Part shown: piece by piece, positions 7,606-63,228 of the stretch
How the letters are laid out: every line of letters begins with the position of its first letter
How positions within the stretch are numbered: position 1 is the stretch's first letter
NCBI GenBank assembly: GCA_951802195.1
Contig: OX637633.1
Location: 310,001 to 374,000 of the forward strand
DNA: 64,000 nt
Direction: 5' to 3'
Origin: Tausonia pullulans
Lineage: Eukaryota > Basidiomycota > Tremellomycetes > Cystofilobasidiales > Mrakiaceae
Translations under genes and position numbers: made by a program
Notes under the pieces: generated by a model
Told to the model about the DNA's origin: nothing
Databases searched by the model: none
What the model saw: only the letters and a program-made list of their open reading frames with translations

Positions 7606-10600
7606 ATGGCGCCCGACGGTCCCTCGTTCGCCTCCCCCTCCTCCTCCTCATCCCCTGCTGGTCCATTCGTCTCCCATCCGCCGCCCTCTCACCACCAGCG
7701 CGAGCCCTCCTCACATCTCCGGGCGCGTCCTAGCTCGGACGCTGCTGGCAAGCGCGTCGCTCTCGACGAGCCTCGCGGTCCCAATCGGCGCGTCCGCTCT
7801 GCCTACGTTGGCTCCCCCGGTTCCTCGCCCTATACTGTCTACCAGGCCCAGCAGCAGTATGTCGCCGCCCGGAGGACGTCTGCCAGCGACGCTCTCTCCC
7901 ACACGGCGAGCGGCGCGTCCTCATCGTTGCTCCCACCGTTGGCGTTGCCGCAGGGCCAGACAAGGAGGAGACACTCGGAGGATCCCCTCGGTCTCGGCCT
8001 GGCAACCGAGAACGACTTCTCAGGTAGATATGGTGCTGGGGTCGCTCAGGACGATACGTCGGAGGAGTTGGGCGACGTCAACGCGACGTTGGGAGGGAGG
8101 AGACCGTCGTGGGTCTCGATCCAGCTCCCCACCCTCACGCTCCCGTCATCGTCCTCGTCTAGTGCTGATACAGTAGCCGACAAGAACATGTCATTCTCCG
8201 ACTCGTTATCTTCGCACCAGAGCCTGGAGTTGTCTTTCCAGGGGGGACGACGACGAGGATCCTTGACGAGTGAACCCGACGACGATCTAGCGGGCCCGTC
8301 GCTGGCGGACCCATGCTCATCGAGCCTGTCGGTCGTCCTCCCGTCGATGGGGGCTTTCCCCCAGACATCGCCCTTCACGTCGACAGATGCGAGCAGGTCC
8401 AGCTCTCCTCCTACGAGCATTGCAATCCCCTCCTCGTTTGAGATCAAGCTCCGGACGATTAACGACGCATCAACCTCGTCGTTCGTGGGAGGAGCGATGC
8501 CGCCGGCTTCATTCTCTGGCTCCACGACGCCCTTCACCACCTCTCCCGTCTCCGGCTCTCCCGTCATCACTACTGCTGGCTCTCATGCTCGCTCGCTCTC
8601 TTCGCCGACTAGCCCTGCGCCCATCATCCCCGCTCGGTCTCCCCTCCGACCACGGTACTCGGGCACACCCTCCATTTCGTCCGTCACCTCCCTCCTTGGC
8701 GACGGGCCAAGCGCGTCTCGACCGAGCTCTGTCCGATCCAACTCCATTACATCCAACTCTTCTGTGCGGACCAAGGACGACAACGGCATTGCTGCTCCTT
8801 CGCTCGAAGCGACACTACGTCGACCGAAACCGCCGAACGACGCGTCGTCGCGTCCTACGTCCTCGGCGACGGCCGTCCCGTCGTTGTCTTCAGCGCGAGA
8901 GGCCTCTTGCTTGTCGTTGGCGCCCGAAGTGATGGAGCGGGCCAACAGGGCATTCTATGTAGCGGATGAGACGGCCATTTGGCTCGACGGCGATGATGGC
9001 TCTGAGGAGGAGACGGCAGCCGGGTTCGCTCACGCGTCTGGCTCAGCGGGGCCCAGACCGAGACCGCCGAGCACGACAGGTGGGATTCTAAGCGAGAGGG
9101 CCAAGGCCAAGTGGCGAGAGGCGAGGGTGAGTGATACCATATGCGCGCGAAAGACAAAAACGAACCGGCTCACCTAATTTCGTTTCCTCTAGATTACGTC
9201 CACGTACTTTGAGGCGCTTGAGGGGGAGTCTGAGATCCCACCAACCGAGGCTGAGGTCACCCTTGCAGATGGGGCTTCGCCCGAAACCGCACCCTTCGAC
9301 CGACCGACTCATTCGCGCTCCCACACTGCCCCATCACCGTCCAAGCTCCAAGCTCAGGCTGCTGCTGATGCTGCCGCTACTAGATCTAGCACTCGTACAG
9401 CCCTGCCCCCACCTATTATGCTCCCTAGGTCTCATGGCTCGGCGTCGACAACCATCTCCCGGTCGGGCGCCGTCTATGCCGCGCCTCTATCGCCGCCCGT
9501 GCTCTCGCCGACACCTTCATCCTCTCGTCCGCAAACGATACAGCGGCTTATGTCCAGCTCTTCTTCTATCTCGACGGCCACGTCCTCCAACGCCCACGGT
9601 CGCTCCAACTCGCAACCGTTCCCCTTTGCAGCCGCGGCGCTCAACAAGCCGCTCCCTTCACCCTCAGCAGCAGCGGCAGCAGCGGGCGTCGGAGCGACGA
9701 CGCCCACCCTCTCCAAGAGGGGCAACATCCTTCACGAGATTCACACGACCGAGCGGAGTTACGCCCGCGATCTTGCCACGGTCCGGGATGCGTACCTCGC
9801 CCGGTTCGGCCAAGGCATGACGATGACCCCAACGGAGCTCCGCCGGAGCGCGAGCAGGGCCTCAACGCATCATTCGCAGCCGAGGACGCCCATGGAGCTT
9901 GCAATGGGCGACAGGCGGACCTTGAAGCAGGCCACGGCACCTCCGGCCCTTGGCGACCACTTGAGCAACAGCAGACTCAGCGGACATTCTATCGGCGGCA
10001 GTGGTAGTGGTGCTCTCAACGGAAGCGGGCTCTCTATGTCGTCCGCTCTCCCGATCACAGGTGCCTCGGGCTTTGACTCGCCTCAGCGATCCCCCTCCAT
10101 CTCGTCACCCTCATCGCCCTACGCTGGGACTAGCTCTAACGGCGGAACCTCGTCGTATTTTTCCCAGCAGCGGCTCTCGACGCTCTCCTCAACGACTCTC
10201 TCTTCCTCGCCGACGTCGACGTCGCAAGGGGCTGGGTCGCTTTCCTTGGGGGATACACGCGCCGTATTTCTTAACATTGAGGCCGTCGCGGCGCTCGCGG
10301 GGGAGTTTGCAAGCGTCCTCGAGCGAATGGCGCTCGAACAGGAGGGCAAGGACATGATAGGAGAGGCTTTCTTGGCGATGGTGCGTGTTTTTCTCCTGTC
10401 TCGTAACCGCCCGCTTGCCTGTCTCTGAACTGACTTGACTCTCGTTTCGTTCCCTCTCTGCAGATGCCCCGCATCAAGCAAGCCTACACTTGGTACTGCT
10501 CCCGTCAAGCCGCCGCCCACACTAAGCTCGTCCAGCTTCTCACAGACGCACGGCACGCTACCTACTTCGCCGAGTCATGGGAGCTCGCTCGACCGCACAC

Positions 10601-13511
10601 GAACGCGTGGGACCTGCCGTCTTTGCTGATCAAGCCCGTCCAACGGGTGCTCAAGTACCCGCTCCTCCTCGATGACCTACTCCGGTGCACGCCAGAGACT
10701 CACCCAGACCATGGCAACATTCAAGATGCGGCGACGGCTATCAAGGCCGTTGCCGATGAGATCAACGAGGTCAAACGGAGAAAAGAAACAGTCGATCGGG
10801 TTTTTCAGCCTGCTGGCTCCTTGTCCGACCCAACAAGCCCGGCGCCAAACAGTCACCACCATCCAGCGTCAACAACGTCGTCCAAGGGCGGGAAGATGGC
10901 AAGCAAGCTCGGGGGGCTTCTAGGCAAGGACCGCGACAAGGACAAAGATCGAGACTTCCGAGCCGCTAATGCCGCCGCAAGTCAGGCGGCTCTCCAGTTC
11001 AATCAGAAATCCCATGATGAGCTCCGAGCGACCGAGAAGAGCTACGCGGCGCTTGTGACAAGGCTTATGGCTGCCGAACAGACGGCTAGACAGCTTGGGA
11101 AGCTCGTTGCGGGCGCTGGAACGAGGGCGAGGGAGCCGTGGGCGGCGCAGAGACGGGCAGTCGAGGTATGGAGGAGAATCGTCAACCTCGATGGGCTAGA
11201 GCCCGTGGAGGACATCCGGATTGAGGCATATCGAAGTGTGGTGCTGGAAATCCTTGCGCGACCATGTAAGGCAATGGTGAATAGTCTGCTACACTTTTTC
11301 TCGTCTCATCTCGTCCTCTCGCTGACTTCCTCACGTCATCTCACACATCACAGGAGGACGAGCTTCGCGACTTCATCCTGCCCGCCCTCCTCAACCTCGT
11401 TGCCATCTGCAAGGGCCCCAGGGCCGTCGTCCTCCAGCGCAACGCTAAATATGAGGACTACAACCGCGTCGTCCTCGCCAAATTCCGAGGCGATTTTGCC
11501 CGTCTCGCGCGCGAGACAGACGCCGTCGACGGTGCTCAGACGTTCGTGGCGCTTCATCATCAGCTTCTTCTCGAGCTCCCGCCGCTGCTGGATGGGTTCT
11601 CGGCAGTGCTGGGTCATATCGTCCGCGCGCTTGCCGCGTTGCAGGCGAAGTTCCATGGCGAGGTTCGCGCGCTGCTTGGCCAGTTTTGGGTCGAGTATCC
11701 GCCGGTCGTCATGGATACTGAGGACGAAGAGGGAGAGGAAGAAGGAGGAAGGGAGGACAACGCGGAGAGAGGACATGCGAGGGAGGCTGCGCAGCGTGAA
11801 ATGATGGCTGCCGAGCTAGAGAAGCCCATGGATACTCAGAGTATCATCCGGGTCTGGCAGGAGGCCTCGGCCGTGCCGGCGCAGATGTTAGACCTCATCT
11901 CTATTACTCAGAAGCGTGAGTCTAAGCAGACGAAACAAAAGAACCTCCTTCGCGAGCTAACAGATTCAAGTTGCTCGCCATCCAGTGCCCTTTGGGATGC
12001 TCGACATGGCATCACAGCCCTCGTCCCGCAACGGATTTGGCACTCCCTCGGGAGCCTCCGCGCCTGCAGTTGGTGGGGGAGGCGCGAGCTCGACGATGCT
12101 CTCTCGGACGCCCAGTGTCATCTCAACCGGTGGCAGAAGACGCAGCGAGCATCGGACCTCGACACCGCCTTCCTCGTCCACGTCATCTCTCTTCCCAGCC
12201 CCTGCTTCCGGCGAGAATACCAGGACTCGCTCGCGTGCCTCTTCCTCGGCCGGGACGGCCACGACAACGACGAAGCCGTTCGCCGTCGCCAACGTTTCCT
12301 CTTTCACTGGCGGGTCGCCCGTCTCCCCTTTCCACCCCTCGTCAGAGTCCGCCGACTCCCCCTCACCTTCAGCGACGTCATCCTCACGGCCAAGCATGTT
12401 CCAGTTCCGCCGCTCATCCAGGTCCAAGGCGGCCGCTTCTGCCTCTGGCTTCTCACCTGACATTCCTGCATCAGGTGAAGCCCCGCTCCCTAAGACGCCT
12501 CCGTCTCGATCGGCGGTCCAATTGCCCATCCCTCTCGGCGTTCCCATCCCCGTTAACCGCACGACGACGATGACGACGACGACCCGAAGTCGGTCCTCAA
12601 CCGCGTCTTCGCTCGGCCCGGTCCTATCAGCGCTCTCGTTTGAAGGGTCTGACGGTGGCCCACAGGGGAGCTTCGCCGACTCTGTCATTAGAAGGCTCTC
12701 GCTCACGGGAGGAGCTGGCGGCAGTGGTAGTACTGGTGGTGGCTCGGCAGCGACGAGCGTGTCAGCGCACACGACGGTCTCTTCGGATGGTGGTGGGTCT
12801 GGGGGCAAGCGGTTGTCGTTGATGAGCATCGCCAGTTCAGCGCTGTATGACCCGCGCTCGCCATCTTCGTTCGATCGGTCTTTCGGGGCGGCGTCGCCGA
12901 GGGGCAGTGGGTTCGATATCGCAGAAGGAGTCGACACGACTCCGACGAAACGGCTCGAGCGGTTCGTTCGCCAGGATGGAGAAGATGACCTCGTCCTCGG
13001 TGGTGATACCTCCCACCCGCTCTCGACTGAGGAGACGGCGGCGGACGAACCGGCAACGCTGTACCGCTGCGAATGTGTCGCTGATTTTGACCTTGGGACG
13101 CATGAGCTCACGTACATGAGCCACCAGTGCGTCCGGTCATCCGGCTTGCGTTCCTGCCTGAAGGGCAACCGACATAGAGCTGACATGTGTCCCCCCATAC
13201 GTCTGTTAGGTTCCTCAAGATCTCTCGCGGCGACGAGATTGATGTTGTTTACGAGGTCGGTCGCGTCGACGAGCTCGACGATTTCCCGCTCGACGTCGGA
13301 CGTGAGTAGTGGTTGAACGTTGGTCTCAGTGATACTGGCTGACCCATACTTGTCATCAGTCGAGGACGACGGTCTGCTGATCGGACGTAACGCGGTCGGC
13401 CTCCAGGGCTTTGTGCTCTGCTCGTTCCTTGTGAGTGCGGTACCTGTTTGCCTTCTGCTTGGTCCCTGACTCCTTCTCTTGCTTCTCTAGCAACCTCTCG
13501 ATGCATCTTGA
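7606..13511 (+). CDS. RhoGEF (DH) - BAR - SH3 protein, about 1802 aa
   Basis: Eight exons: 7606-9126, 9193-10380, 10464-11276, 11354-11915, 11986-13126, 13210-13301, 13360-13430, 13491-13511. The first 680 residues are Ser/Pro-rich and disordered. The DH (RhoGEF) domain starts near residue 683 (HEIHTTERSYARDL) and contains the hallmark third conserved region LLIKPVQRVLKYPLLLDDLL near residue 955. The domain is split by a Ser/Thr-rich insertion of roughly 150 residues. A BAR-type helical region follows (about 1080-1360), then another disordered stretch, and a divergent SH3-like end built across four small exons (ADFDLGTHELTYM ... SRGDEIDVV ... GLLIGRNAVGLQGF). DH plus BAR is the arrangement of Tuba/DNMBP and S. 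pombe Gef1, activators of Cdc42 at growth sites and septa. I see no PH domain, as in that family. The exon 5 acceptor could instead lie 15 nt upstream, at 11971, in the same frame. Confidence 0.9.
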
Positions 13512-17829: not shown

Positions 17830-17860
<31 letters not shown>

Positions 17861-20951: not shown

Positions 20952-23270
20952 GAGGATTGCGAGCCGAACTGATACCGCTCTCTCGTCCAGTTTCGAACCT
21001 TGGTCCCGCTTCCGTATGTCGTTTTTTTTTTCCCTCCCGCTCTTCCCTTCACCGACTGACCCCCTCCTTCTTGAATCTCATAGGGAAAAGATCTTCACTT
21101 CCCTCGACGCCTTCGACAAGCCTGTCACAGACGCTGGGGCCCGTCGAATGGCGCTTTCCATGGTCGAGTATCTCCTATCCGAAGCGGGCGCGCTCGACGA
21201 GCCGCTTCTCCCGCCAGAGGCGGAGGGAGAGGATGACGACGACGCAGAGGCGATGGCCTACATCAGCCCTTATGTCGAGGTGAGTCTTGAAGCCTCTTCG
21301 TAGCATACGGTCTCATCACTGTCATTGACAACGACCTCCTCGGCAGGCCCTCACGACGGCCAAGACAGCGCTCTCCAAGACGCCCATCACGACGCGTCAA
21401 CTCCAGGTCGTCCTCGACACGCTTGTCGACTCGCTGTCTGCAGCGGAGGAGGAGGAGGTCGCTGCCGAGCAAGAGGAGGCCGAGCCAGAGGAGGAGGCAG
21501 AAGAACTTGCTGAACCTGAGCCTGAGCCTGAGAAGAAAAAGGCCAAGAAAAAGGCTGAGGGTAACGGGGCGGCCATGAAGANNNNNNNNNNNNNNNNNNN
21601 NNNNNNNNNNNNNNNNNNNNNNNNNNNNNNNNNNNNNNNNNNNNNNNNNNNNNNNNNNNNNNNNNNNNNNNNNNNNNNNNNNNNNNNNNNNNNNNNNNNN
21701 NNNNNNNNNNNNNNNNNNNNNNNNNNNNNNNNNNNNNNNNNNNNNNNNNNNNNNNNNNNNNNNNNNNNNNNNNNNNNNNNNGTCTTCCTCGTCCAGAAAG
21801 ACCTCCAAGGCCGGCGCGCGGACGCGCTCCTCCACCTCGGACCTCCCGCACGGTAACGGCAAGTCGAACGGTGTCAGTTCAAGCGTGAGCAGCATCACCA
21901 ACGGGAATGGCCATTCTTCCGCCGCCGCCGTCGTCGAGCCGCCCGCTGTCTCGACACCCCCTCCTTCACCACCGTCTCGGTCGGTCGTCTCGCTTCTCTT
22001 GGCCTTGATCAACCCCATCCTCGCGACGGCAGGCATCCGCGCTGAGCTGGACGATGCGCTTAACCGGCGATCGGAGCTACTCAAGGCGCAGGCGAGGGAG
22101 TTAAAGGCCCTGCTGGATGCGACGGCGAAGGAGCGCGTCGAGCGGGACGGAAAGTTCAAGTCGGCGACGCTCAATCCAGAGGAGAAGGAGGCGCTGAAGA
22201 AGGAGGTGCGTCGCCGTGATCCACCAGCTTCATTGAAACACCCAGCTCTGACGCTCATCTTCCTTCTCCCTTCCTGCCAGTCCGACGACGTCATCGCTAG
22301 AGCCCACCAAGCGCATCTCGAACTTCTCCACACCCACCGCGAGGCCCTCCTCCCCCTCACCGGCCGTTCTCAAGTCGTCATCGGTAGCGACATTGAAGAC
22401 CGTCTCTATCTCACGCTCACCGCTGACTGGGAGGGCCGCAAGCCTCACTCGTGGGGTTACGGCCTCCATGTCTACGGACGGCCGTTCCCGGCGGAGCTCT
22501 GGTCCAACAAGGCCGACGATCTTGCAGCGACGGCGGCGATGGCTGGTATCGACGACCCTATGGCGCCAGTTGCGGCTGCTGTCAACGGTGGTGACGTCGA
22601 GATGGCGGACGTGTCGACGAACGCGGATGAGGAGAGCGAGCGCGCGTCAGAGAAGGAGCCGCATGAGTCGCTTTCACCCGCATCCGACATCGACGTCCCT
22701 GCTCGTCCAATTTCTCCTCCTCCTGCTCCGTTTGTGTCCAAGTCGGGTTCGGGATCGACGGCAAGCAAGTCGACCGAGGCGACGCCAGCGACGGCAACGA
22801 TGGACGAGGCGGCCGCTCCTCGATGGCACCACTTCACCTCCTCCAAGGCCCTTCGCCGACTCCAAACGCTGATATCGTACCAGTCGCTCGCACTCGCTCT
22901 CTCCAGAGGAGATCTCGTTCTCATGCAGCACCTTCCGACGTCGACAAGTCCCTCTCAGCGGACGTATCCGGACGACGCGTGGTACCACGCTGACACGCTC
23001 GTCGGTGAGTTCGCCGAGGAGGGCAAGGTCAAGGAGCTGCTGCGTAAGATTTGGGAGCTTTCAGAGGAGATAAAGCGTGGGGAGGTGGAGGAGGAAGAGA
23101 AGGAGAAGGAGAAGGAGAAGCGGGTCAAAGGGGAAGGGAAGAGAATGGAGAAGGAAGGGGCGGCCGTTGCTGGGGCGGAGGGAACTGCGGGTGCGATGGA
23201 TACGGCCAACGGAGCGACCGACGGGCCGGAGAAGGGGTCCAAGAGGAGGAGGGTCTCGAAGGCCAAGTGA
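18883..23270 (+). CDS. CDCA7-type zf-4CXXC_R1 chromatin protein, over 1200 aa, with assembly gap
   Basis: Exons: 18883-19961, 20047-20170, 20248-20304, 20384-20887, 20991-21013, 21084-21279, 21347-22205 (contains the 200-N gap), 22281-23270. The first 320 residues are Pro/Ser-rich. A zf-4CXXC_R1 cysteine domain then spans exons 1-3: TCHQCRGYY, RCSK, CILVFCDKDAVNRYG, WTCPSCEDICQ, CSVCRKRKGLDP. CDCA7, the human family member, recruits the HELLS remodeller to chromatin and supports DNA methylation; ICF-syndrome mutations hit this domain. The CHQCR and NRYG signatures are kept, but the human FCGPC pair reads FCDKD here, so one Cys is missing. Downstream, LREFFWRFRTLVPLP and the following helices resemble a DDT-like module (inference). 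The C-terminal part holds coiled coil, a conserved-looking block (SQVVIGSDIEDRLYL) and a basic KRRRVSKAK end. Reading frames on either side of the gap do not agree at exactly 200 nt, so the gap size is a placeholder. Confidence 0.85.
20901..20947 (+). repeat. (TC)n microsatellite inside an intron
   Basis: About 23 TC units fill the first half of the intron 20888-20990 of the CDCA7-type gene. The tract can change length without affecting the coding sequence. Confidence 0.95.
21582..21781. other. Assembly gap (200 N)
   Basis: Exactly 200 unknown bases, a typical placeholder length. It lies in an acidic/Lys-rich low-complexity coding stretch (after EPEPEPEKKKAKKKAEGNG) of exon 7 of the CDCA7-type gene. 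Confidence 1.
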
Positions 23271-23610: not shown

Positions 23611-24983
23611 ATGATGGACTTAGGCACAGGCTCCAAGATCTACTCGTTAAGGGAGAAGAGCCAGCTCGCATTCTCTTCGTCAGCGGCCTCAACGTCGAGT
23701 CGCGACACCTCATCCCCCGACTCTTGTGAGTTGAGCCTCCTGCCCGTCGTCGTAAGGATTTGTTGCGATCAAAAGGGCCTTGGAGGGTATCTCAAGCACA
23801 CTTGGTACCCCACTTTTGCATCCTGACGGCCGCATACCTGTCCTCCTCTCAGTCCAAAGCTACCAGAATTGGTACAAGCAAGAAATCGTCGCTCAGGATG
23901 GACTTCTCGATGCTTCCCTGGCAGCCAAGCTCGTAAAAGCCTTGCTGGCTGCCGTTCTGTTCGACAAGGGCCAGATTCCGATGTGAGCATGAAAGCGTTA
24001 TCACGCGCCTGCTTGCGCGCTCGCTCAACATTCCTGTCTCACTCTTCGCGTCGGCCAGGACATTGCAACAGCTCGAGAGACAGGCCCTCAGGGAAGCGTC
24101 TTCCTCTCTGGTGGGTCGTTCTGGTCATTGCAATGAGTCTCTCTATCTTTGTTCTCTGACATCGGCATCATCTTCGATTAGCTTTCCTCGTCCTCCTCCC
24201 AACAGCGTGCCGACTCCGCATTCCTCCTCACGCCCAAGCCATCTCTCTCCCAATCTCTTCTCACCCAGCTCAGTCAACTTTCCGACTCTCTCATCGAAGC
24301 CTTCTCCACTCTTGCGCGAATTCCACATCCATCGCCGAAATCAGATGCCTCCTCGTCCGGGATGGGCGCAGACGCGCCACCGTTGGTGGTGTTGCTCTCT
24401 GGGCCAAGCTTGCTGTTGCCTCGGGCGCTCTTTGCCATCAGGCTTCCGTTGCTGGGAGTCGGACTTGATGGGGAGAACGGGGAGCAAGAGCGAGGAGGCA
24501 ACGAGCGTAGGACGAACGACGCCATTGAGCGGAGCGTCCTTCGAGGGCTCGTCCATCTTGGCAGTCTCTCGGGGCAGAGCCTGGGTGGGCCCTTTTTCCA
24601 TCTCTCTGCTGCCATGCCTGTTGACTGACATGGTGGGTCACCGCCGCCACGTAGCGCCGACAAAGACCTTCCTCCTACTCCTTGCGCCTCGGTCATTCAG
24701 GTCACCGCTCTTCCTGCCTCGGCAGAACCTATCAGCCCGGCTCGGCACTCTCCTCGCTCCAGCGCCCACTCCATACGCGGCTTCCGCGAAAGGACAGGAG
24801 AGAAAGGCCACCACCACCTCAAGGATCGCCACGGAAGGCGTGACGCTTGAGCTCGACGAGACGGACGTCGGTACTATCCGCGTCGAACGAGGCGTGGGGA
24901 GGAGCGGGCTGGAGAAAGGCGAGGAGGACGAGAGGATCTGGTTCGTTTGGGAAGGGGGGACGCTAAATGGCTGGAGAGATTGA
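23611..24983 (+). CDS. MAD2L1BP: p31comet (MAD2L1BP) homologue, 342 aa
   Basis: Five exons in phase: 23611-23725, 23853-23982, 24059-24110, 24182-24584, 24655-24983. p31comet is a HORMA-fold adaptor that binds closed Mad2 and lets TRIP13/Pch2 take it apart, silencing the spindle checkpoint. Evidence is ordered resemblance to the human protein as I recall it. A helix ending LLAAVLFDKGQIPMTLQQL matches human IMYQRQQLPLPYEQL; VVLLSGPSLLLPRALFAI matches VLILLGGNALSPKEFYEL; SLAPTKTFLLLLA matches LQAPPLMGTVVMA. The C-terminus ERIWFVWEGGTLNGWRD matches DYIWFQAPVTFKGFRE. Order and spacing are preserved, and the N-terminal tail is Ser-rich as usual. The length is close to the human 274 aa plus insertions. 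Either of two adjacent Met codons could start translation. The donor at 24585 (GTGGGC) was chosen because it restores the frame and the match. It lies 340 bp downstream of the CDCA7-type gene on the same strand. Confidence 0.82.
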
Positions 24984-26177
24984 TATTTCATGAAAACGTT
25001 TCCGCAAAGCGGATTTGATGAATTGTACAATGCATCCATCGGCGCGACGGCTCTTCCCCCCCCCCCCCCCCCCCCGGAGATCCGACGGACGGACGGCTGC
25101 ACCTGCACACGACGTCTATCTCCGGACTCGACTTCGGAGTCGCTTCAGCTTCGGCGAGCTCGGGCGACGCGAGACCATTGATTCCAGACTAGCAGCAAGC
25201 AAGCACAAGAGCTACTCCCGACGACCGTCGCACAGACGCTCATCGTGCCGTCGCCTCGCTCGTTCCGTCGGCTCGCCTGCGTTCTCCTCCCAAGTCCGAG
25301 CGTGCGGCGACGGCGCGCGGCCCACCGACGCTTTGCATGCGACGGACATCGCAGTCATCGGTTTATTCGGTCATATGGGAACCAGGCTTAGGCTCGGGAA
25401 AAATGAGATGGCGAACGGGAGAATAATCACAAGACCTGCATGCTGACTGAGCATGACACATGCGAGGAAGGGCAAGCAGGCAGACCGTCGGAGCCGGCGC
25501 CGACGCAGGATCAGAACTCTCCATGTGCAAGCGCGACACATATTGCATGAGGAGAGCTTGCATGGCGTGCCCCAGCGTAAATGGCACGCCTCCTATTACG
25601 TCTAAGCTGGGGGCGCGGGCTCCAAAGCAGATCATCTGCGAGATATGGCATGGATAAGAAGAGAGAGCACGGACGAGAGAGATAAATGACTTGCATGTGG
25701 ACTTGTCGGCGCGGTCGTCCGAGTGCTCCAACGACCGGCCATCGTCACCTTACAGTGCTTCGCGTCAAATGTCCCGTCGAGCGCCTCGTATAAAGCACAC
25801 GTCCAATCGGCCGACATGCAGCCGAATTATACTGAACATGATAGGCTCTCACCTTGTGATGACTTGTGCGGCCAAAAGTAAACGACTGGCTCAAGGTGGT
25901 GGTGTGGCGCTTCTTTCCCTCGCTCTCGTCGGTCTACGCCGAAACAAAGAAAGGAAGGGGCCGACGGACTAAGTCGAAGGAGCGCCGGCCTGATCCCGAC
26001 GCGGCGAGCGGAGAGAGAATCGGCAGCGTCACTTCCTTCCTTCGGCCGGCATTTTATAACTGTGAGGTCGTGCTCGTCTTACCTCAACCTGCATCCTTCA
26101 ACCAACTCAACGCCGGTTTCCTATCCTGCTCACACGACCGAGGTCTTCTCCTCCAACCTCCTTCTACACCCCGCACT
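24984..26177. other. Intergenic, 1.2 kb
   Basis: No gene with splice or domain support. It contains a run of about 17 Cs near 25060-25076. The last 200 bases are C/T-rich and presumably form the promoter and leader of the transporter gene. Confidence 0.4.
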
Positions 26178-42278: not shown

Positions 42279-44330
42279 GTGAGTTTAAAGGCCGTCGAGC
42301 TTGGCCTTAAAGGATGATCGATTCTGGGCTGACCTCAGGCGATTGCCGAGCGACTGGCTCCAGATCCTTGTTGTCACCGCATTCAGGTTGAACATCGCAT
42401 CACATCAGCAGGAATCGGCCTATCCGTAACCTCCTTGAATATTTTCTTCACATTTATTTCTTGTTAGTTTAGAGAGAACTTGACCGTCGCATTCAGGGCG
42501 ACTGGCTCGTTCGTTCGCCCGGCCTCGCCGATGGCCCATCCCACGCATTCTCTGTTTTACAACGCCCTTGCTCGCTCTTTTGCCTCATCTTCCTCTTTTG
42601 CTTTTTGCCTCTCTCCACCTGCTCATTGATTTGCTCCTGTATTGCTTTCTATATCTTCCATGCTATGTTATGTCACCCTAGAAGCGACGTTTCTTCAGAA
42701 CACTGGAGCTCGAAACTATGGCGCCTTACAAGTTCCTCCTCACACTGTCTTTGCGACGACGATGATGTTCGGAAAAGCATCAGCTTATACGTTATGATTC
42801 GGTTGATATGAGACGAGACGAGAGAGCAAGATCGAGTGGAGAGAGAATAAAAGAAAGACAACGTCATGGAAAAAGAATGAGAGCAATATGAGATGGACCG
42901 TGGCCAAGCGGGCCAAGCGGAGGGAGGGAGATGGTAAGAGAGATTTGTAATGGAGCGAGGTGTCGAAAGACTGTTTAGCCGGGCAGACCCAGCATCGCGG
43001 TCAGAGTGATTGGTGCTTCCCAAGGTTAGAGACGGGGGGAGCGATGAAGCGGCTAGGGAATCCCACAGTAAGGAAGGCTGACGGTGATCGACCAGTCACT
43101 CGGTATGTTTTTCCGACCGGTCTGGCTTGTTTCAAAGGCTCAGCTCTCTCTCTCCTCCTCATTATTTTCCCATACCTCATCGCCGCTCGTCATGGAATCC
43201 AGCTTCCAGGCCAGCTCCCAGCGGCGCTCCTCGGCGTGATCGACCTCAGAAAGGCCTCTCTTGGGCCTCTGCGAGGTATCCGTAGCCCTGGCCCTCGGAC
43301 CGGCGCACATCTTGGAGAATCATAACCCGACGAAGGCGAGGACACGAAACATTGGCCAGGAGAGCGAAAGTGATCTCAGACTCGTGATGACTGCGAGCGG
43401 TTGGCGGCCTTCGGCGTTCGAGTTGACGATGCCAAAGTCCGTCTGGAAAGAAAGTGACCTCCTCAATCTACCCACGGCCCCTCGCTCCCTCCACCGAATC
43501 GACGAGAGCCCTGTGGCGGGTGCGCAGAGAGTAATCTAGTCGTCGAGTTGTGTATGAGGAAAATCAACTGCCAAAAGTCCGGAAGAGTGAGGTCCTGGAA
43601 CACGAGCGAGACAAAGAGGAGGGGGGTTGCGCCGGGTGAGGGAGTCGGCCGGGAGGAGGAGTGATGATACTGTTGATGATAGCGAGTTGGCCAGGGAAGA
43701 ACCCGGTGGCTTGTCGTCATGCATGACGTGTGATGTTGGCGGTCGATCAACTCGAGGGCGACGCGTCTCTCGCTGGCCGGCCTCCCGCCTCTTCCTCGTG
43801 TCAACTCGCGGCTGGTGACAACAAGCTGGCAGACCGCGACTGCCTTTGTCTTTCCAACCACCACTGACCTAGTCGCTCCTCGCCCGCGGACAAGATAAAC
43901 ACCCTTCCCCTCCCCCCCCCCCTCCCCCTCCCCTCTCCCCCATTCTCGGCCATTGCCTCCTTGTCCTCCTCCTCTCTGTGAGCACACGGGAAAGCCAAAG
44001 ACCGTCTCTGCTCGCTCGTGCGTTCCCTCCATGCCCCATCCTCCCCGAGAGAATGTTGATCAATGCTCGCTGGCCTGTGACGCCGCCTACCCCCATCTGA
44101 CGCTCGTTTTTCGTCCTTCTTCAGAACCCCCTTTCCTTCTAAGCATCCTTTCCCTGGAAAACGCTTAACTAGGACATCTCATCGAAGACCCCCGACCCCA
44201 GGGTCTGCATCGCCTCATCCCTTTGACGTCCCCCCCACTCCCTTCACTGACATATGTCTTTCCCTTCTTGACACCACTCGGTCTTCCCTTCCAGCCAGCA
44301 AGCTCTCTCCTCCCGCCCACCCACAGCCTC
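42279..44330. other. Intergenic, 2 kb
   Basis: No supported gene, tRNA or transposon. A C-rich tract (CCCTCCCCCCCCCCTCCCCCTCCCC) lies near 43908-43936. The right end probably forms the promoter and leader of the Bud4-like gene. Confidence 0.4.
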
Positions 44331-47300
44331 ATGTCCTCCTCAGAAGGTCCCACCTCGCCCGCCCCCATTCCGCGGTCATCCTCCTCCGACTTGCTCCCTG
44401 CGAGCCCTGGCCTCGCTCCTCCGCCTCCTCTTCCATCCACCGCCTCCTCGCTCGACAGGAGCTGGTCTCCGCTTCGCATCCAGAAACCCCAGCAGCAGCC
44501 ATCCCCTCCCTGCCAGGACGCAGGGATGCCCTCGCCCACCAAGGCGCACCACCTTGACGGGGCGGCCGTGCCCTCCTCACTTCTCGCCAACCGGCCGTCA
44601 ACCCAGACGCAGGACAGCGAGCAGCAGCCTCGTCGGACGAGCTCCTCCTACAAGCACATGAAAACCAACTCGCTCGTCTCCAACTCGCCCTTCAAGACCG
44701 TCGGATTGCCCGCCCAGCCCTCTCCTTCGTCTGTTGGTCGACCGCCGACGAAGCACGCGATTGACCTCGGGCTGGGCTTGTCGTCGTCACCCGCCATTAG
44801 TGCTCCTCCGCCGCCGCGGGGCGAGCTGCAGAGGAAGCAGCAACAGCGACGCTCCTCCACCGCCGATGACGTTGACGACACGAGCTCTGATGAAGACGCC
44901 GACGACCGTCGTCTTCGCCAGCAACAGCACCCCGACCACGCCGCGGCTGTCCAGCGTCGCCTCGACTTTCAGCGCGAGTCGAAGCGCAGGCAGTCGGCAG
45001 GTCTCGCAGGTCTCTCGTCTCGAGCCAAGGTCTCTGCGTCGCCGTTTCTTGTCAGGTCGCCCTCGTTCGAAGGAAGCGACGATCCCGCGCGCGCAGCCGG
45101 CGCTGGTGGAGCTGGAGGAGGACCTCCTCGCCCCCCGCCTGTCGGCGTTGTCGGCACCTCGTCTGCAGACGAGGATGATGACGAGAACGACGATGAAGGC
45201 CACGGCGTCAACCATGGATACCTTCCTCTTCCGCTCGAGCCCGGCTCGTCGCTGATGATGGATCATCCGATGGTGGATGACTCGCCGGCGTTCTCGTCAC
45301 CCGGGTTCTCGTCACCGCCGACGGATCACGACACCACCGCCTCGCCTCTGGCTTCCCCCCCTTCCCAGCTACCGGAGGAGGCGTCTTACGACCAATACCA
45401 GCAGTATGTCCAGCAGCAGGAGCACCAGGAAGAGCGTCGTTTTCTCTCCGCTCCCTCGACGCCCTCCCGAGCGTCCCACCTCTCTGCCACAGCCGACGGT
45501 GCTCCCTCACCATCGCCCAAAAGCAGCCTTAAGAAAAAACGCACCCGTCGGTCAGCCGGCCAGGATGGCGTCCCGCTCGCGAGGCGTGAGCGACGCAAGA
45601 CGGTCACTTTTGATGAGCGGCCAGAGGTGTCGTTTTTCGATCGGGAGACGAGCACCCAGGCTATCAGCGATGAGGACGTTGCTGTCTACGGCGGTGGGGA
45701 ACATTGGGACGACTACGACGACGACGAGGAGATGAGCGAGAACGAGATGGGTGGCCAGAGACTCGAGGTTCCGTACCACCAACACCAGCTTCATTCGCAC
45801 GACTCGAACGACTCGTTCGAGTTTGAACGGGAAGAGATCCCCGGATCTCCCACCCCGAGAGCAGACGAGTCCTTCGGCGAGGTCTCGATGCTCTCCAACG
45901 AGGACGACGACCAGTACGACCCGAATGAGCTTTACTCTGCGACGGACTCCTTCGTTACCTCCCTCCTCGAGGAGCATCTCCTCTCGCCCGGATCGGTTTA
46001 CTCGCCCGTCTTCCCTTCGGAGGGAGGAGAGTCACCTTCTCTTCAGCAGCACGAGCATCAGTTCCTGAAGGACACGAGCTTGAACTCTCCGCCTCCTTCG
46101 GCGAACGTTCTCTCAGCTTCTCGTGATATTGAGGACACACCGACCCACCAACCTTACCACTCTCAGCAGCAGCAGCAGCAGCACCCAAAGATCGAGCAGC
46201 CCGACCTTCCTCACCTCGCTGCTTCGCCCGCGGACCCCATTCTCCTCAACGGCAACGCTCTCGAGCCATCGACGCACCTTCCTCCACTCTCAGTGGCGCA
46301 TCACCACCAAGGATCCTCTCCGCGCCGGTCATCCTCCACTAGCTCGTTGGCAATTCACCACCACCCGGAGGTTCACGCCCATCAGAGCGGCCCGCTCCCA
46401 GACCCGTTCCTCCAGGTCTCTACGGTGCAGCACCATCTCGCTGCAGAGCATGAGCAGGAGGAGGAGAAGAAGGAGGAGACTCTTAACCGTGACAGTGAGG
46501 ACGGCGTGCCGTATGGAAGGAGCCACCATGCCGATCGGTTCCGCGCGGTCCAGGAGCTGCGAAAGGGCACTCTCGGCAGGCACAAACATGAGGATGAAAA
46601 GACGAGGTCGCCGTCGCCGGAAGGGGAGGAGGAGCCCAGAGCTGAGGCCGACGAGTTTAAGGGCCAGGAAATGGAGGACAAGGACGAGGACGAGGAGAAC
46701 GAGGACGAGGAGGACGAGGAGGACGAGGAAGAAAGGAGGCACGAGTCTCAGCCTACCCCGAGCTTTGATATGCCGAAGCTTGAGGATGGTGCTGGGGAGG
46801 AGGAGGATGAGGAGGAAGGGCAGGCAAAGGAGAAAGCGGATGTTTTTGGCGAGAAACGTGAGATCTCGTCTGTGGTACGTTCATTGTCTCTCTATTCTTC
46901 TTGTCAAGAGTGTCAGCTGATATCTTCTGGTCCCATTAAGAACCTGCCCTCTGACCCGCCTTCGACTGAGGTCATCCCAGCTGTTTCCGCCACCACCATT
47001 ACCACCAACACGTCCTCCTCCTCTTCCTCCTCCTCTCATCTTGATGCTCCCTGGCACCTCCCCTCCTTCGATTCGTCCTCCTCTCCTCTCTTCGGCTCCG
47101 TCTCCAACTTCGCCCCCTCCGGAGATGCCGCCGCGCGAGCAGCCAAAGCCGTCTCAATCGATGAATTTGGCTCGCTCGCCTCGTTCAAGCCTTCGTCATC
47201 GGCCGAGCGCCTTAGGGCGGAGGAGACCGGTGGGACTATCGACTCGGTTGGCTCCCTCGGCAGCAACGCCAGCGGAGGCAGCAGCGCAGGCCGGAGCCCT

Positions 47301-50090
47301 AGACTCACACGTGATAGCATCCGACGGAGGATGGACGCTAAGCGGGTCGAGGAGGACGCCGCTGCCCTCAAGAGACGTCGAGACGAGACCGGCTCATCTT
47401 CTGCTGCCACTGCGACTGTCTCGGCCTCGCCGTCCTTGCATGGACTTGACGGCCTCGGCATCGGCTTCAGTGGACAAGACAGCCGAGGACATGTTGCGGT
47501 GTACGATGGCCCGTCAGCATCTTACGATGAACCCGTGGCGTCGCCCGCTACTGCTGCTGCGCCTGCTTCTTCACCTGCCCGCCCGACACAGTCCTCCCGG
47601 AGCTCCAGCTATGAGGATCGTTCTCGCTTCGCCGCCCAGCAGAAGCGCCCTGCCCTTGCTCCTCGCACCAGCACGCTCTCAGCGCACGACGTTCTCCATG
47701 GCGAGTCAGCGCTCGATCGACTCGTCGCCCCCAAGTCCCGCTCGGCCTCACCCAACTCGGGTGCCTCATCGCCCGGCCGTTCCGATACGGGCACCCTCCG
47801 CCACGGCAGCGAGAAGGAGGTCATCGTTGACCGGCTCAGCGGCTCGGGCATCAACCTCCCTTCTTCGTCCCCAATTGAGACGGCCTTTCCTGCCCATTTC
47901 CTCCTTCCTACTACCGCCGAGGACAGGGCCCGTCGCGAGCAGGAGAAGACTCAGCGGGAGAGGGAGCTCATGCCCCCTCCCCCTCTGCCTCACAAGGTCA
48001 CTGCCAGCAGCATCAGCCCTCGCCCCTCAATGGTGCCATCACCGACACTATCCTCAAGCGAGCACACTGAGGAAGGTGGCACCCAAACGCGGGAGGAGGC
48101 CATTATCGCGCGCAAGAGGGAGAAGCGCGCGCAGGAGCAGGCCGCCTCGGGTCTTCCTGTGAGCAGGAGGGGCAGGGGTCGGAGGAGCCTCAGCACGGGC
48201 GACGCCTCGATCCCAGGGTCCGCGACGGGCTCGGCGAATAAGAGGAGGACGATCGCGGCCGATGAGCACTCTCTCAACGACTTCGGCCTTGGAGGTGGCA
48301 GCAGCACGCAGGAGGCGGCTGCCTTTGGCGATGATGTCTCGAGCGAGCTCGATCGAATTGCCGAGGACAAGAAAGTTGGTCTTTACCTCTCCCCTCACTT
48401 GATTGGATGCGAAGCTGACTTACCATTTCGTGCAGCGCGGCTACCGGCTTGTCGAGCGGCCACAGGTTTACGTCGCCTCGGATGAGCGAGTCGCCTACAA
48501 CGCGCGTGCAGGCGACCTCGATCGAGGCAAGGCCTGGCGGTCTGTCAAGAGGCCGTCCGACATGGTGAGTGCCTCAGACGACCCAGAGATGGACTGTTGC
48601 CCATTTGACGTCCTCCCTTAATTGCAGAACGAGTACGCAGAGGAGATCCGCGAACTTCGTTCCCGCGAGAAGCTTGGTCGAGCTCACTCGAAGGTCTTCG
48701 TCCGAAGTGAGTCTTGCTGAGACTGCGTTGCATGTGCTTCGTGACTGACCGACCGACCTTCTTCCCAGTCGTCGGCATCACCGATGTAGCTGTGCCTCTC
48801 CCGAGCGAGTCGCAGACGACCTTCCGGATCGTCCTCAACAACGGGCTTCACTCTGTCGAGACGTCATCGTACACACTCGGCCAGACGGTCCAGATCGGGC
48901 AAGAGTTCGAGCTGTGCGTAGAGCAGTCGTCTTTGTTGTCACGCACTATCTCTTGAGACTGACTCGCCCTTTCCTCTTGACAGCCTCGGCCTCGACAACC
49001 TTGAGTTCAGCCTCGCCGTCAAGGTTAAGAAAGACATCCACATCCAGAACCGCCTCCGTCGCCTCGCGCCCGTTGTACCTGCGAGGGTCTCGACGCCTGA
49101 GCCCCCACGGCCGTCGACGCCAACCGCGTCTGTCAAGGCCCAATCCCGGCTTAGCAAGCTTCTTTCCTCTCCTCGCAAGCCCAAGCCCGTCGTCGCGCCC
49201 TCTCTGCCGCCACCCCCTGTGGTCAGACGAGTCGAGCCGGTCGAGCCACCGCGGGACGACCTCGTCCGGTACCTCGCCCCGGACGGCACACTTGCCGTAG
49301 TAAAGGTTGTCTTTAAGGACATCTCGTCAAAGTGTAACGGTCAGATCCTCAACCTCGGCCTCCCTCTCACTGGACGGTGGAGCGAGGAGGGGGCGATCAA
49401 CGCCCCGGCGAATGCCAATGGCCGTCGCCCGAAGACCATCGGCAGGATGGAGCTCCAGCTGATCCAGATCCCGAGTATCCCGGGTCTTGCGAACGACCAG
49501 CTCCCGCAGAGCCTTGATGACACCATCCAGGGCCTCCGACACGTCCGCTGGCACAAGATGGACTACTTCACCGGCACGCTCACCCAGCTCGGCGGAGACT
49601 GCACGGTGGGTTCTTTTCCCCCCGCCCTCTTCGAATATAAGCTGACTTGGCCTCTTCCTCCCAGACCTGGCGCCGACGTCAGATGCGCATTGTCGGCGGT
49701 ACGCTCGAGGCGACCTCGGACGTGACCAAGAAGATCACTGCCCGAATTGACCTCTCCAAGATGGTCAAGATCCTCAACGACGGCGACCAACCGATGAGCG
49801 TGGAGCGGTCTTTCACTCTCGTCTTTGACAACGGCGAGGACATCCAGTTCTTCGCCGATAGTGAGCAAGAAAAGAGCGACTGGTGCGTGGCTCGCTACCC
49901 TTTCATGTTGAGAGTGCACACCCACTGACAAGAGCGGTTCTTTCCTTTGTTCTGCAGGCTCCATCACCTCCGTGAGCTCCTCGGCCGCGTCCCAAGTCTC
50001 CCCCTCTGGGCCGAGCTTCTCTGGGATAACAACGAGAAGCAAAAGAAGGCCGCCGGCGTGCCTTCTAATCCCAAGCCTGAGTGGCGCTAG
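44331..50090 (+). CDS. BUD4: Bud4/anillin-like septation protein with C-terminal PH domain, 1767 aa
   Basis: Eight exons: 44331-46874, 46941-48374, 48436-48564, 48628-48706, 48769-48913, 48984-49605, 49665-49882, 49958-50090. The first 1350 residues are disordered and full of Ser-Pro sites (likely CDK/MAPK targets) and acidic runs (DEDEENEDEEDEEDEE). Basic clusters such as KKKRTRRS occur. The C-terminal 400 residues are ordered: an anillin-homology region (KVFVRIVGITDVAVPLP, QEFELLGLDNLEFSLAVKVK), then a PH domain (MDYFTGTLTQLGGD, WRRRQMRIVGGTLEA, FTLVFDNGEDIQFFADSEQE, WLHHLRELLG). The very end, RVPSLPLWAELL, is typical of Bud4/Mid2 proteins. These organise septins and the cytokinetic ring at the bud neck. 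The first intron (66 nt) has no in-frame stop, so read-through would add 22 residues. Start: MSSSEGP is preferred over an upstream in-frame Met in the C/T-rich leader. Confidence 0.9.
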
Positions 50091-56231: not shown

Positions 56232-60010
<3,779 letters not shown>

Positions 60011-61777: not shown

Positions 61778-62010
61778 GGTGGCCTTGAGAGCGGGAGGGA
61801 GGGCTGGCAAGTTGAAAGTGGAGGTTAGGCTTCGTCGAGAAATGGCGGCGAGAGAAGGCTTCGCGGTTCGCCGATTGTGCACATCACGCGCGCATGGCGA
61901 TGTTTGCTAGCTGACCCATTGTCCGCGGCATTGCACTTGGAAAACAACTGAAGTTAATAGATACATCGGCTGAAACAATCAAAGCATGGAACTGCGTGAA
62001 ACAAAAGTAA

Positions 62011-62083
62011 TGCCTCGAGCCTGGCTCGAACAGGCCACCTTACGCTCTTCAGGCGTACGCTCTACCAGATGAGCTATCGAGGC
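62011..62083 (-). tRNA. tRNA-Phe(GAA), intronless
   Basis: Cloverleaf on the minus strand, 73 nt. Acceptor stem GCCTCGA/TCGAGGC with discriminator A, D-arm TAGCTCATCTGGTAGAGC, anticodon stem TACGC/GCGTA around loop CTGAAGA (anticodon GAA), and T-arm GCCTGTTCGAGCCAGGC. All stems pair. No intron, unlike tRNA-Phe of many yeasts. Confidence 0.95.
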
Positions 62084-62167
62084 AGATAGATTGATTAAAT
62101 CCCGGCTGCTGTACGCGCTCCACGAGTCGAAAGCACATCTCTCTCCGCCCCCTTGCCATGCCGTCCT

Positions 62168-62666: not shown

Positions 62667-63228
62667 CGAAGACGACAAACCGGGTGGGGCGATGGGCGGC
62701 CACGTGCGTACCCGTTCACAGCGGCCATAGAGCCATCGCTTCCTTGGTTTAGGGGCTATAACACGTCACTAGTAATGATGAGGTCAGTCGTTCGATTCGG
62801 CTAGGAAGCTTTAGTGCCTGCGATCAGCGGACACGTCTCTTTTGCCCGTCCATGGTTGCCACACCTCCCGTCTCGTTTGTCTGGACTGGCCAAGCTGAGG
62901 TGACAGGGAGACGAGCGTGTCCAGCTGTGCCGTGCCTGGAGCACCGACCTAGCTGACGTCTCAGCAAAGGCGAGCTTCGTGCCGGCTGGGGGTCGCGCGC
63001 GAAGGAGGAAGATCATTGCGGTGGCAGGTAATCGCACCATCACACCGCCAGGCACAGCCAGAGATCCCCTCCACCACCGCCCGCTCAGCGACGATCCAAC
63101 TCGAGCAAAGTGGAGAGAGGTTGGAGAAAAATGGGAGAGGAGAACCCTCGGCCCTGCCAGATGGCCTGCATATGCACCGATCCAACGTCGATCGGGAGAA
63201 AAGAAAAACGCCGGGCAAAAAGGAAGAC
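62667..63228. other. Spacer in the tRNA region
   Basis: No gene with support between the minisatellite and the second tRNA-Cys copy. Confidence 0.4.

Follow-up and report, generated by a model that had tools for sequence, protein, structure and literature searches.

The protein p31comet (MAD2L1BP) belongs with Mad2, Rev7 and HORMAD, its relatives of the HORMA fold (HORMA, PF02301). In the text of van Hooff et al. (2017, PMC5579357) it has been proposed that p31comet and these relatives likely go back to duplications before LECA, and that p31comet was lost recurrently thereafter. According to the same text, TRIP13 is retained, with a single exception, just in species that have p31comet or a meiotic HORMAD, and species that have TRIP13 but lack p31comet, such as S. 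cerevisiae, are predicted to use TRIP13 for meiosis alone. This was the only relevant paper that we found on p31comet in fungi, its phylogeny and its lineages, and we draw on its text.

Ye et al. (2015) reported that a conserved surface of p31comet, situated on the safety belt plus an adjacent loop, opposite the Mad2 interface, binds TRIP13 (PMC4439613). The P228A/K229A mutant of human p31comet has been described as TRIP13-binding-deficient, and deletion of residues 253-274 was reported to abolish the association with TRIP13 while leaving weak Mad2 binding (PMC10721328). Mad2 binding of p31comet is reportedly abolished by Q83A/F191A or by the loss of 30 C-terminal residues (PMC4636321).

Here we describe a gene in a window of 64,000 nucleotides, the whole stretch of DNA that was analysed (positions 310001-374000 of contig C14), from a genome of 23.86 Mb in 21 contigs. 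We propose, with a probability of about 0.72, that its product is a p31comet (MAD2L1BP) orthologue that has diverged strongly and would connect Pch2 with Mad2 or with a different HORMA protein.

Gene structure

The gene lies on the plus strand at 23611-24983 and has five exons; splicing yields 1029 nt that encode 342 amino acids plus a stop and hold no internal stops. Coordinates, exons and product are exactly those of the initial annotation. Exon 1 (23611-23725) encodes residues 1-38 and base 1 of codon 39, a Ser/Ala-rich leader whose frame is the top one of the three sense frames by codon usage. Behind intron 1 (23726-23852; 127 bp, GTGAGT...CAG, branch-like CTGAC), exon 2 (23853-23982) holds most of an N-terminal block, SLAAKLVKALLAAVLFDKGQIP (23915-23980), the end of which, LQQLERQALRE, lies in the 17 codons of exon 3 (24059-24110), after intron 2 (23983-24058; 76 bp, GTGAGC...CAG, branch-like CTCAC). 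Intron 3 (24111-24181; 71 bp, GTGGGT...TAG, branch-like CTGAC) leads to exon 4 (24182-24584), which contains a helix-like block (24242-24313), a strand block PPLVVLLSGPSLLLPRALFAIRLPLL (24377-24454) and a further block DAIERSVLRGLVH (24518-24556). Intron 4 (24585-24654; 70 bp, GTGGGC...TAG, branch-like CTGAC) is followed by exon 5 with the stop (24655-24983), where a Pro-Arg pair resembling the TRIP13 contact is encoded at 24717-24722 and the C-terminal IWFVWEGGTLNGWRD at 24936-24980.

All four introns are of the GT-AG type, and in each a CTNAY branch-like site begins 21-30 nt upstream of the intron end. Not one of the four intron lengths is divisible by three, and the joined frame is nevertheless open. 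With a codon-usage table trained on nine long ORFs of the window, some of which are perhaps not genes, the spliced model scores +7.2 bits in its own frame versus -46.6 and -50.1 in the other two (margins of 54 and 57 bits). Taken singly, four of the five exons have the model frame as their top sense frame, the exception being exon 3, for which another frame is preferred. Because of the open frame of 342 residues, the complete splice signals and the codon usage, we consider the gene very likely real. That the model is partly wrong, through another start, an intron 3 acceptor ending at 24205 or decay of the copy, so that the protein would differ, is very improbable: codon usage gives exon 3 no support and the acceptor at 24205 preserves the frame, but 342 stop-free codons run across four introns of such lengths with every splice signal in place.

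The GC content of the window is 55-62% in steps of 4 kb. Upstream of the gene, an open frame at 21579-23270 (+) with a Lys/Glu-rich tail includes exactly 200 N at 21582-21781, an assembly gap or a withheld stretch; in the 495 residues that follow the N stretch, no Pfam family exceeds its cut-off (two weak matches, at E 0.18 and 9.7). A run of 20 C lies just 3' of the gene (25056-25075) and one of 17 C at 17831-17847. Elsewhere in the window there are a RhoGEF domain over two adjoining open frames at 9193-11801 (+), presumably exons of a single gene, an open frame of 1438 amino acids at 44169-48482 (+) without a Pfam match at E<=1e-5, an MCM-lid match at 56299-57483 (-), presumably from an MCM helicase gene, and the genes for tRNA-Phe (62010-62084, -) and tRNA-Thr (62738-62810, +).

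Database searches

Neither the whole protein nor its five pieces matched any Pfam family at E<=10, including HORMA (PF02301), and the candidate did not reach the cut-off of PF06581 (24.1 bits). A sequence search of the PDB returned one irrelevant match only (E 0.71). In the protein database, no relative was found at E<=1 with the full-length query among the 7995 scored candidates sharing most words, and none at E<=10 with residues 38-97 among 141 scored candidates. When PF06581, human p31comet and HORMAD1 were searched against the same genome, no candidate reached scoring, in a first pass too coarse to speak for absence. Human p31comet itself obtains 576.5 bits over 265 positions from PF06581, which suggests that this is a narrow, vertebrate-like model. 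Hence, the failure of Pfam to recognise the candidate is read as a detection limit and not as a defining trait.

Profile alignment to p31comet

Since PF06581 looks narrow and the standard searches name no family, a profile was built from p31comets themselves, using 97 sequences of 250-340 amino acids from the best 120 of 268 matches, the named ones being vertebrate. In a semi-global alignment to this profile with gap costs of -10/-0.5, the candidate scores 86.0 over 248 aligned positions, of which 61 are identical to human p31comet. This score was reached by none of 1000 global shuffles, by one of 1000 window-20 shuffles and by none of 5000 further ones (Gumbel p 8e-4). It was also reached by none of 27 ORF pieces from the window and by none of 422 pseudo-spliced pieces, a set in which the candidate itself may be present. 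The same was true of 4440 overlapping decoys from other ORFs, with the gene's own plus-strand frames excluded (Gumbel p ~0.005, before correction for the look-elsewhere effect).

The outcome depends on the gap costs. At -12/-1 the semi-global score was reached by 68/1000 shuffles, 29/1000 window-20 shuffles, 0/27 ORF pieces and 29/422 pseudo-spliced pieces, and the local score by 5/1000, 4/1000, 0/27 and 3/422, respectively. Aligned globally to human p31comet as a single sequence, the candidate was matched by 0/1000 shuffles at -10/-0.5; at -14/-2 this comparison gave no signal (177/1000 shuffles, or 661/1000 in global alignment).

End to end, the profile alignment has a z of 4.93 and beats 500 of 500 shuffles. 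The reversed profile gives -1.58, and eight profiles with permuted columns lie between -1.87 and 0.51. The likeness depends on the order of the profile. Other HORMA proteins were considered as a better fit and rejected, with z values of -1.12 for the organism's own Mad2 and 0.00 for HORMAD1.

Searched with HMMER without filters, the p31comet profile places the candidate first among the 1018 matches listed from 2001 sequences, with 5.2 bits and E 0.97, in a match that covers the N-terminal block only. HHalign against a vertebrate-only profile of 18 p31comet sequences gives a probability of 1.9% and an E of 0.026, which is not significant (6/150 shuffles reach the score), and in global mode it finds nothing (118/150). 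Its path coincides with that of the profile alignment through residues 64-259 and ends before the C-terminal tail. The initial annotation had looked to a profile search for a p31comet or HORMA match, and here it fared poorly, as Pfam finds none and HHalign gives a weak one to a profile of vertebrates only. Taken together, the alignment statistics are suggestive of p31comet, short of decisive; the likeness appears faint but specific, seemingly real in pattern and order yet statistically modest.

Placement of the exons on human p31comet

When pieces of the protein are aligned separately, exons 2 and 3 together have their best local match ending at human residue 95 (15/2000 shuffles reach it; 5/2000 with stricter gaps). 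Exon 4 has a weak match ending at residue 172 (389/2000; 64/2000 with stricter gaps). The match of exon 5 ends at residue 274 and is not above shuffles (756/2000); under stricter gaps it ends at residue 263 (749/2000). These three pieces land on human p31comet in the right order, the last of them at its proper end, and the short p31comet-like blocks that had first drawn attention to the gene are indeed present and in sequence. Without exon 3, the best match of exon 2 is misplaced, ending at human residue 206; the same is true of exon 1, which ends at residue 184 and has no likeness to p31comet.

These results bear on the view that the gene encodes a fast-evolving, lineage-specific protein whose p31comet-like blocks are due to chance, having been picked since any known family could have served for comparison. 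No search returned a family or relative, HHalign is not significant, the Gumbel p against decoys from real ORFs is just 0.005 even before the look-elsewhere correction, and exon 2 alone goes astray, all of which such a protein would explain. Nevertheless, we regard it as unlikely, given a score that depends on order at z 4.93 versus the controls and pieces that fall into place one after another.

AlphaFold models of exon 4, extended by 41 nt into intron 4, and of exon 5, each predicted alone and without relatives, are both of low confidence, with a mean pLDDT of 45.6 and 43.7. The exon 4 model contains two helices at candidate residues 123-144 and 206-232, which align with residues 125-147 and 178-204 of human p31comet, presumably its HORMA helices. 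The predicted helix positions are at most compatible with a HORMA fold.

Putative sites facing TRIP13 and Mad2

Human P228-K229, the TRIP13 contact, aligns with Pro255-Arg256 of the candidate, a conservative change, and HHalign pairs the same residues. At the very C-terminus, IWFVWEGGTLNGWRD-stop stands against human IWFQAPVTFKGFRE: the IWF...G(F/W)R(E/D) end is kept, with a spacing longer by one residue, as had been noted when the gene was annotated. A relaxed form of this motif occurs in one of 5461 stop-terminated frames, namely the candidate (3327 frames from the window and 2134 from fetched loci, the latter partly overlapping each other). The Mad2-contact residues Q83 and F191, which are invariant in the 18 p31comet sequences aligned, are replaced in the alignment by Asp76 and Leu219. 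As the sequences compared are those of vertebrates, we do not count these two residues as defining traits of the family. The putative TRIP13 side is thus better kept in the candidate than the putative Mad2 side. That matches fall on functional sites and on the exact C-terminus also argues against a chance likeness.

Partner genes in the genome

On contig C11, a match to the TRIP13 N-domain (TRIP13_N, E 6.5e-11) and matches to the TRIP13 C-lid all lie within 1.9 kb. Exons joined by hand score 322 bits against a 'Pachytene checkpoint protein 2 homolog' and contain the Walker A motif GPPGTGKT. A HORMA search of the genome gave three matches, with Mad2 above the cut-off and two others, one of them a Rev7-like gene, below it. 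The Mad2 gene lies on C8 (best stretch E 1.3e-6); its joined exons match HORMA at E 1e-26 and a Mad2 with 194 bits. The best match of this Mad2 among solved structures is 4aez_B, presumably fission yeast Mad2, in keeping with a fungal genome. The Mad2 also retains a conserved-looking stretch, MKQITSSVTFLP, that presumably contains residues of the dimer surface. The Rev7-like gene on C13 has 35 bits to MAD2B. Judged by these matches, the same genome clearly encodes a predicted Mad2 and a predicted Pch2/TRIP13, the two partners that the initial annotation had suggested looking for, and their presence is a further point against chance likeness.

Moreover, the genome contains a match to the Spo11/Top6A family above its cut-off, and two matches next to each other, both below threshold, point to Mnd1. 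Because of these matches, Pch2 may act in meiosis here as well. The three HORMA matches leave room for a Hop1 gene, so Pch2 by itself does not demand a p31comet in this organism. It had been stated that the gene implies a pathway for Mad2 recycling; the genes for Mad2 and Pch2/TRIP13 bear this out in part, but the wording was too strong, since Pch2 can also serve meiosis.

The uneven conservation of the two sides allows for a p31comet-derived adaptor that no longer serves Mad2 and presents Rev7 or a Hop1-like client to Pch2. This overlaps with our main reading, as the ancestry is the same and the client another. The Pro-Arg pair and the C-terminal tail on the TRIP13 side are kept and both Mad2-contact residues examined are changed, and the genome contains a Rev7-like gene as well as signs of meiosis genes. 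In other organisms, p31comet and TRIP13 have been reported to act on Rev7 and on meiotic HORMA proteins (PMC9141381). We find such an adaptor distinctly improbable, however, since the organism's own Mad2 keeps MKQITSSVTFLP and contact residues can drift jointly. Quite doubtful, too, is a retained p31comet with its TRIP13-facing surface kept and its Mad2-facing surface changed, where Pch2 would act on another HORMA client, Rev7 or a meiotic HORMA protein, or through a rewired Mad2 interface.

Proposed function

Overall, the observations fit a divergent p31comet best, because the order of the blocks, the C-terminal end and the residues on the TRIP13 side agree and the partners exist. Against it we count the void in Pfam, the HHalign probability, the weakening or loss of signal with strict gaps, the behaviour of exons 2 and 5 alone, the changes at Q83 and F191, the low pLDDT and the lack of a database relative. 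By analogy to animal p31comet, from which we infer fold, binding and function, the candidate would be a HORMA-fold protein with one face for closed Mad2 and a second, comprising the safety belt, the Pro-Lys/Arg loop and the C-terminal tail, for TRIP13/Pch2. The Pch2 ATPase would then reopen Mad2, so that the spindle checkpoint would be reset or silenced. Rev7 and meiotic HORMA proteins may be other clients of the candidate.

If the gene is a p31comet, it adds one further fungal case to an ancient, recurrently lost family. It would also be a warning that the absence of p31comet in profile surveys sometimes means a failure of detection. Should profile searches miss diverged p31comets, some of the losses deduced so far would not be real, and the prediction of a meiosis-only TRIP13 would fall with them. 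A fungus with p31comet, Mad2 and Pch2 would allow a genetic test of that prediction.

Comparison with known systems

The candidate resembles p31comet/MAD2L1BP (PF06581; human 2QYF and 6F0X) in the order of its blocks, in a Q-(I/L)-P block and in the strand block P..V.LL.G....P, as well as in the Pro-Lys/Arg of the TRIP13 contact and the C-terminal IWF...G(F/W)R(E/D). It differs from p31comet in staying under every profile threshold, in the replacement of Q83 and F191 and in long insertions between the blocks. To the organism's own Mad2 and to HORMAD1 the candidate has no order-dependent likeness, and it has no HORMA match in Pfam.
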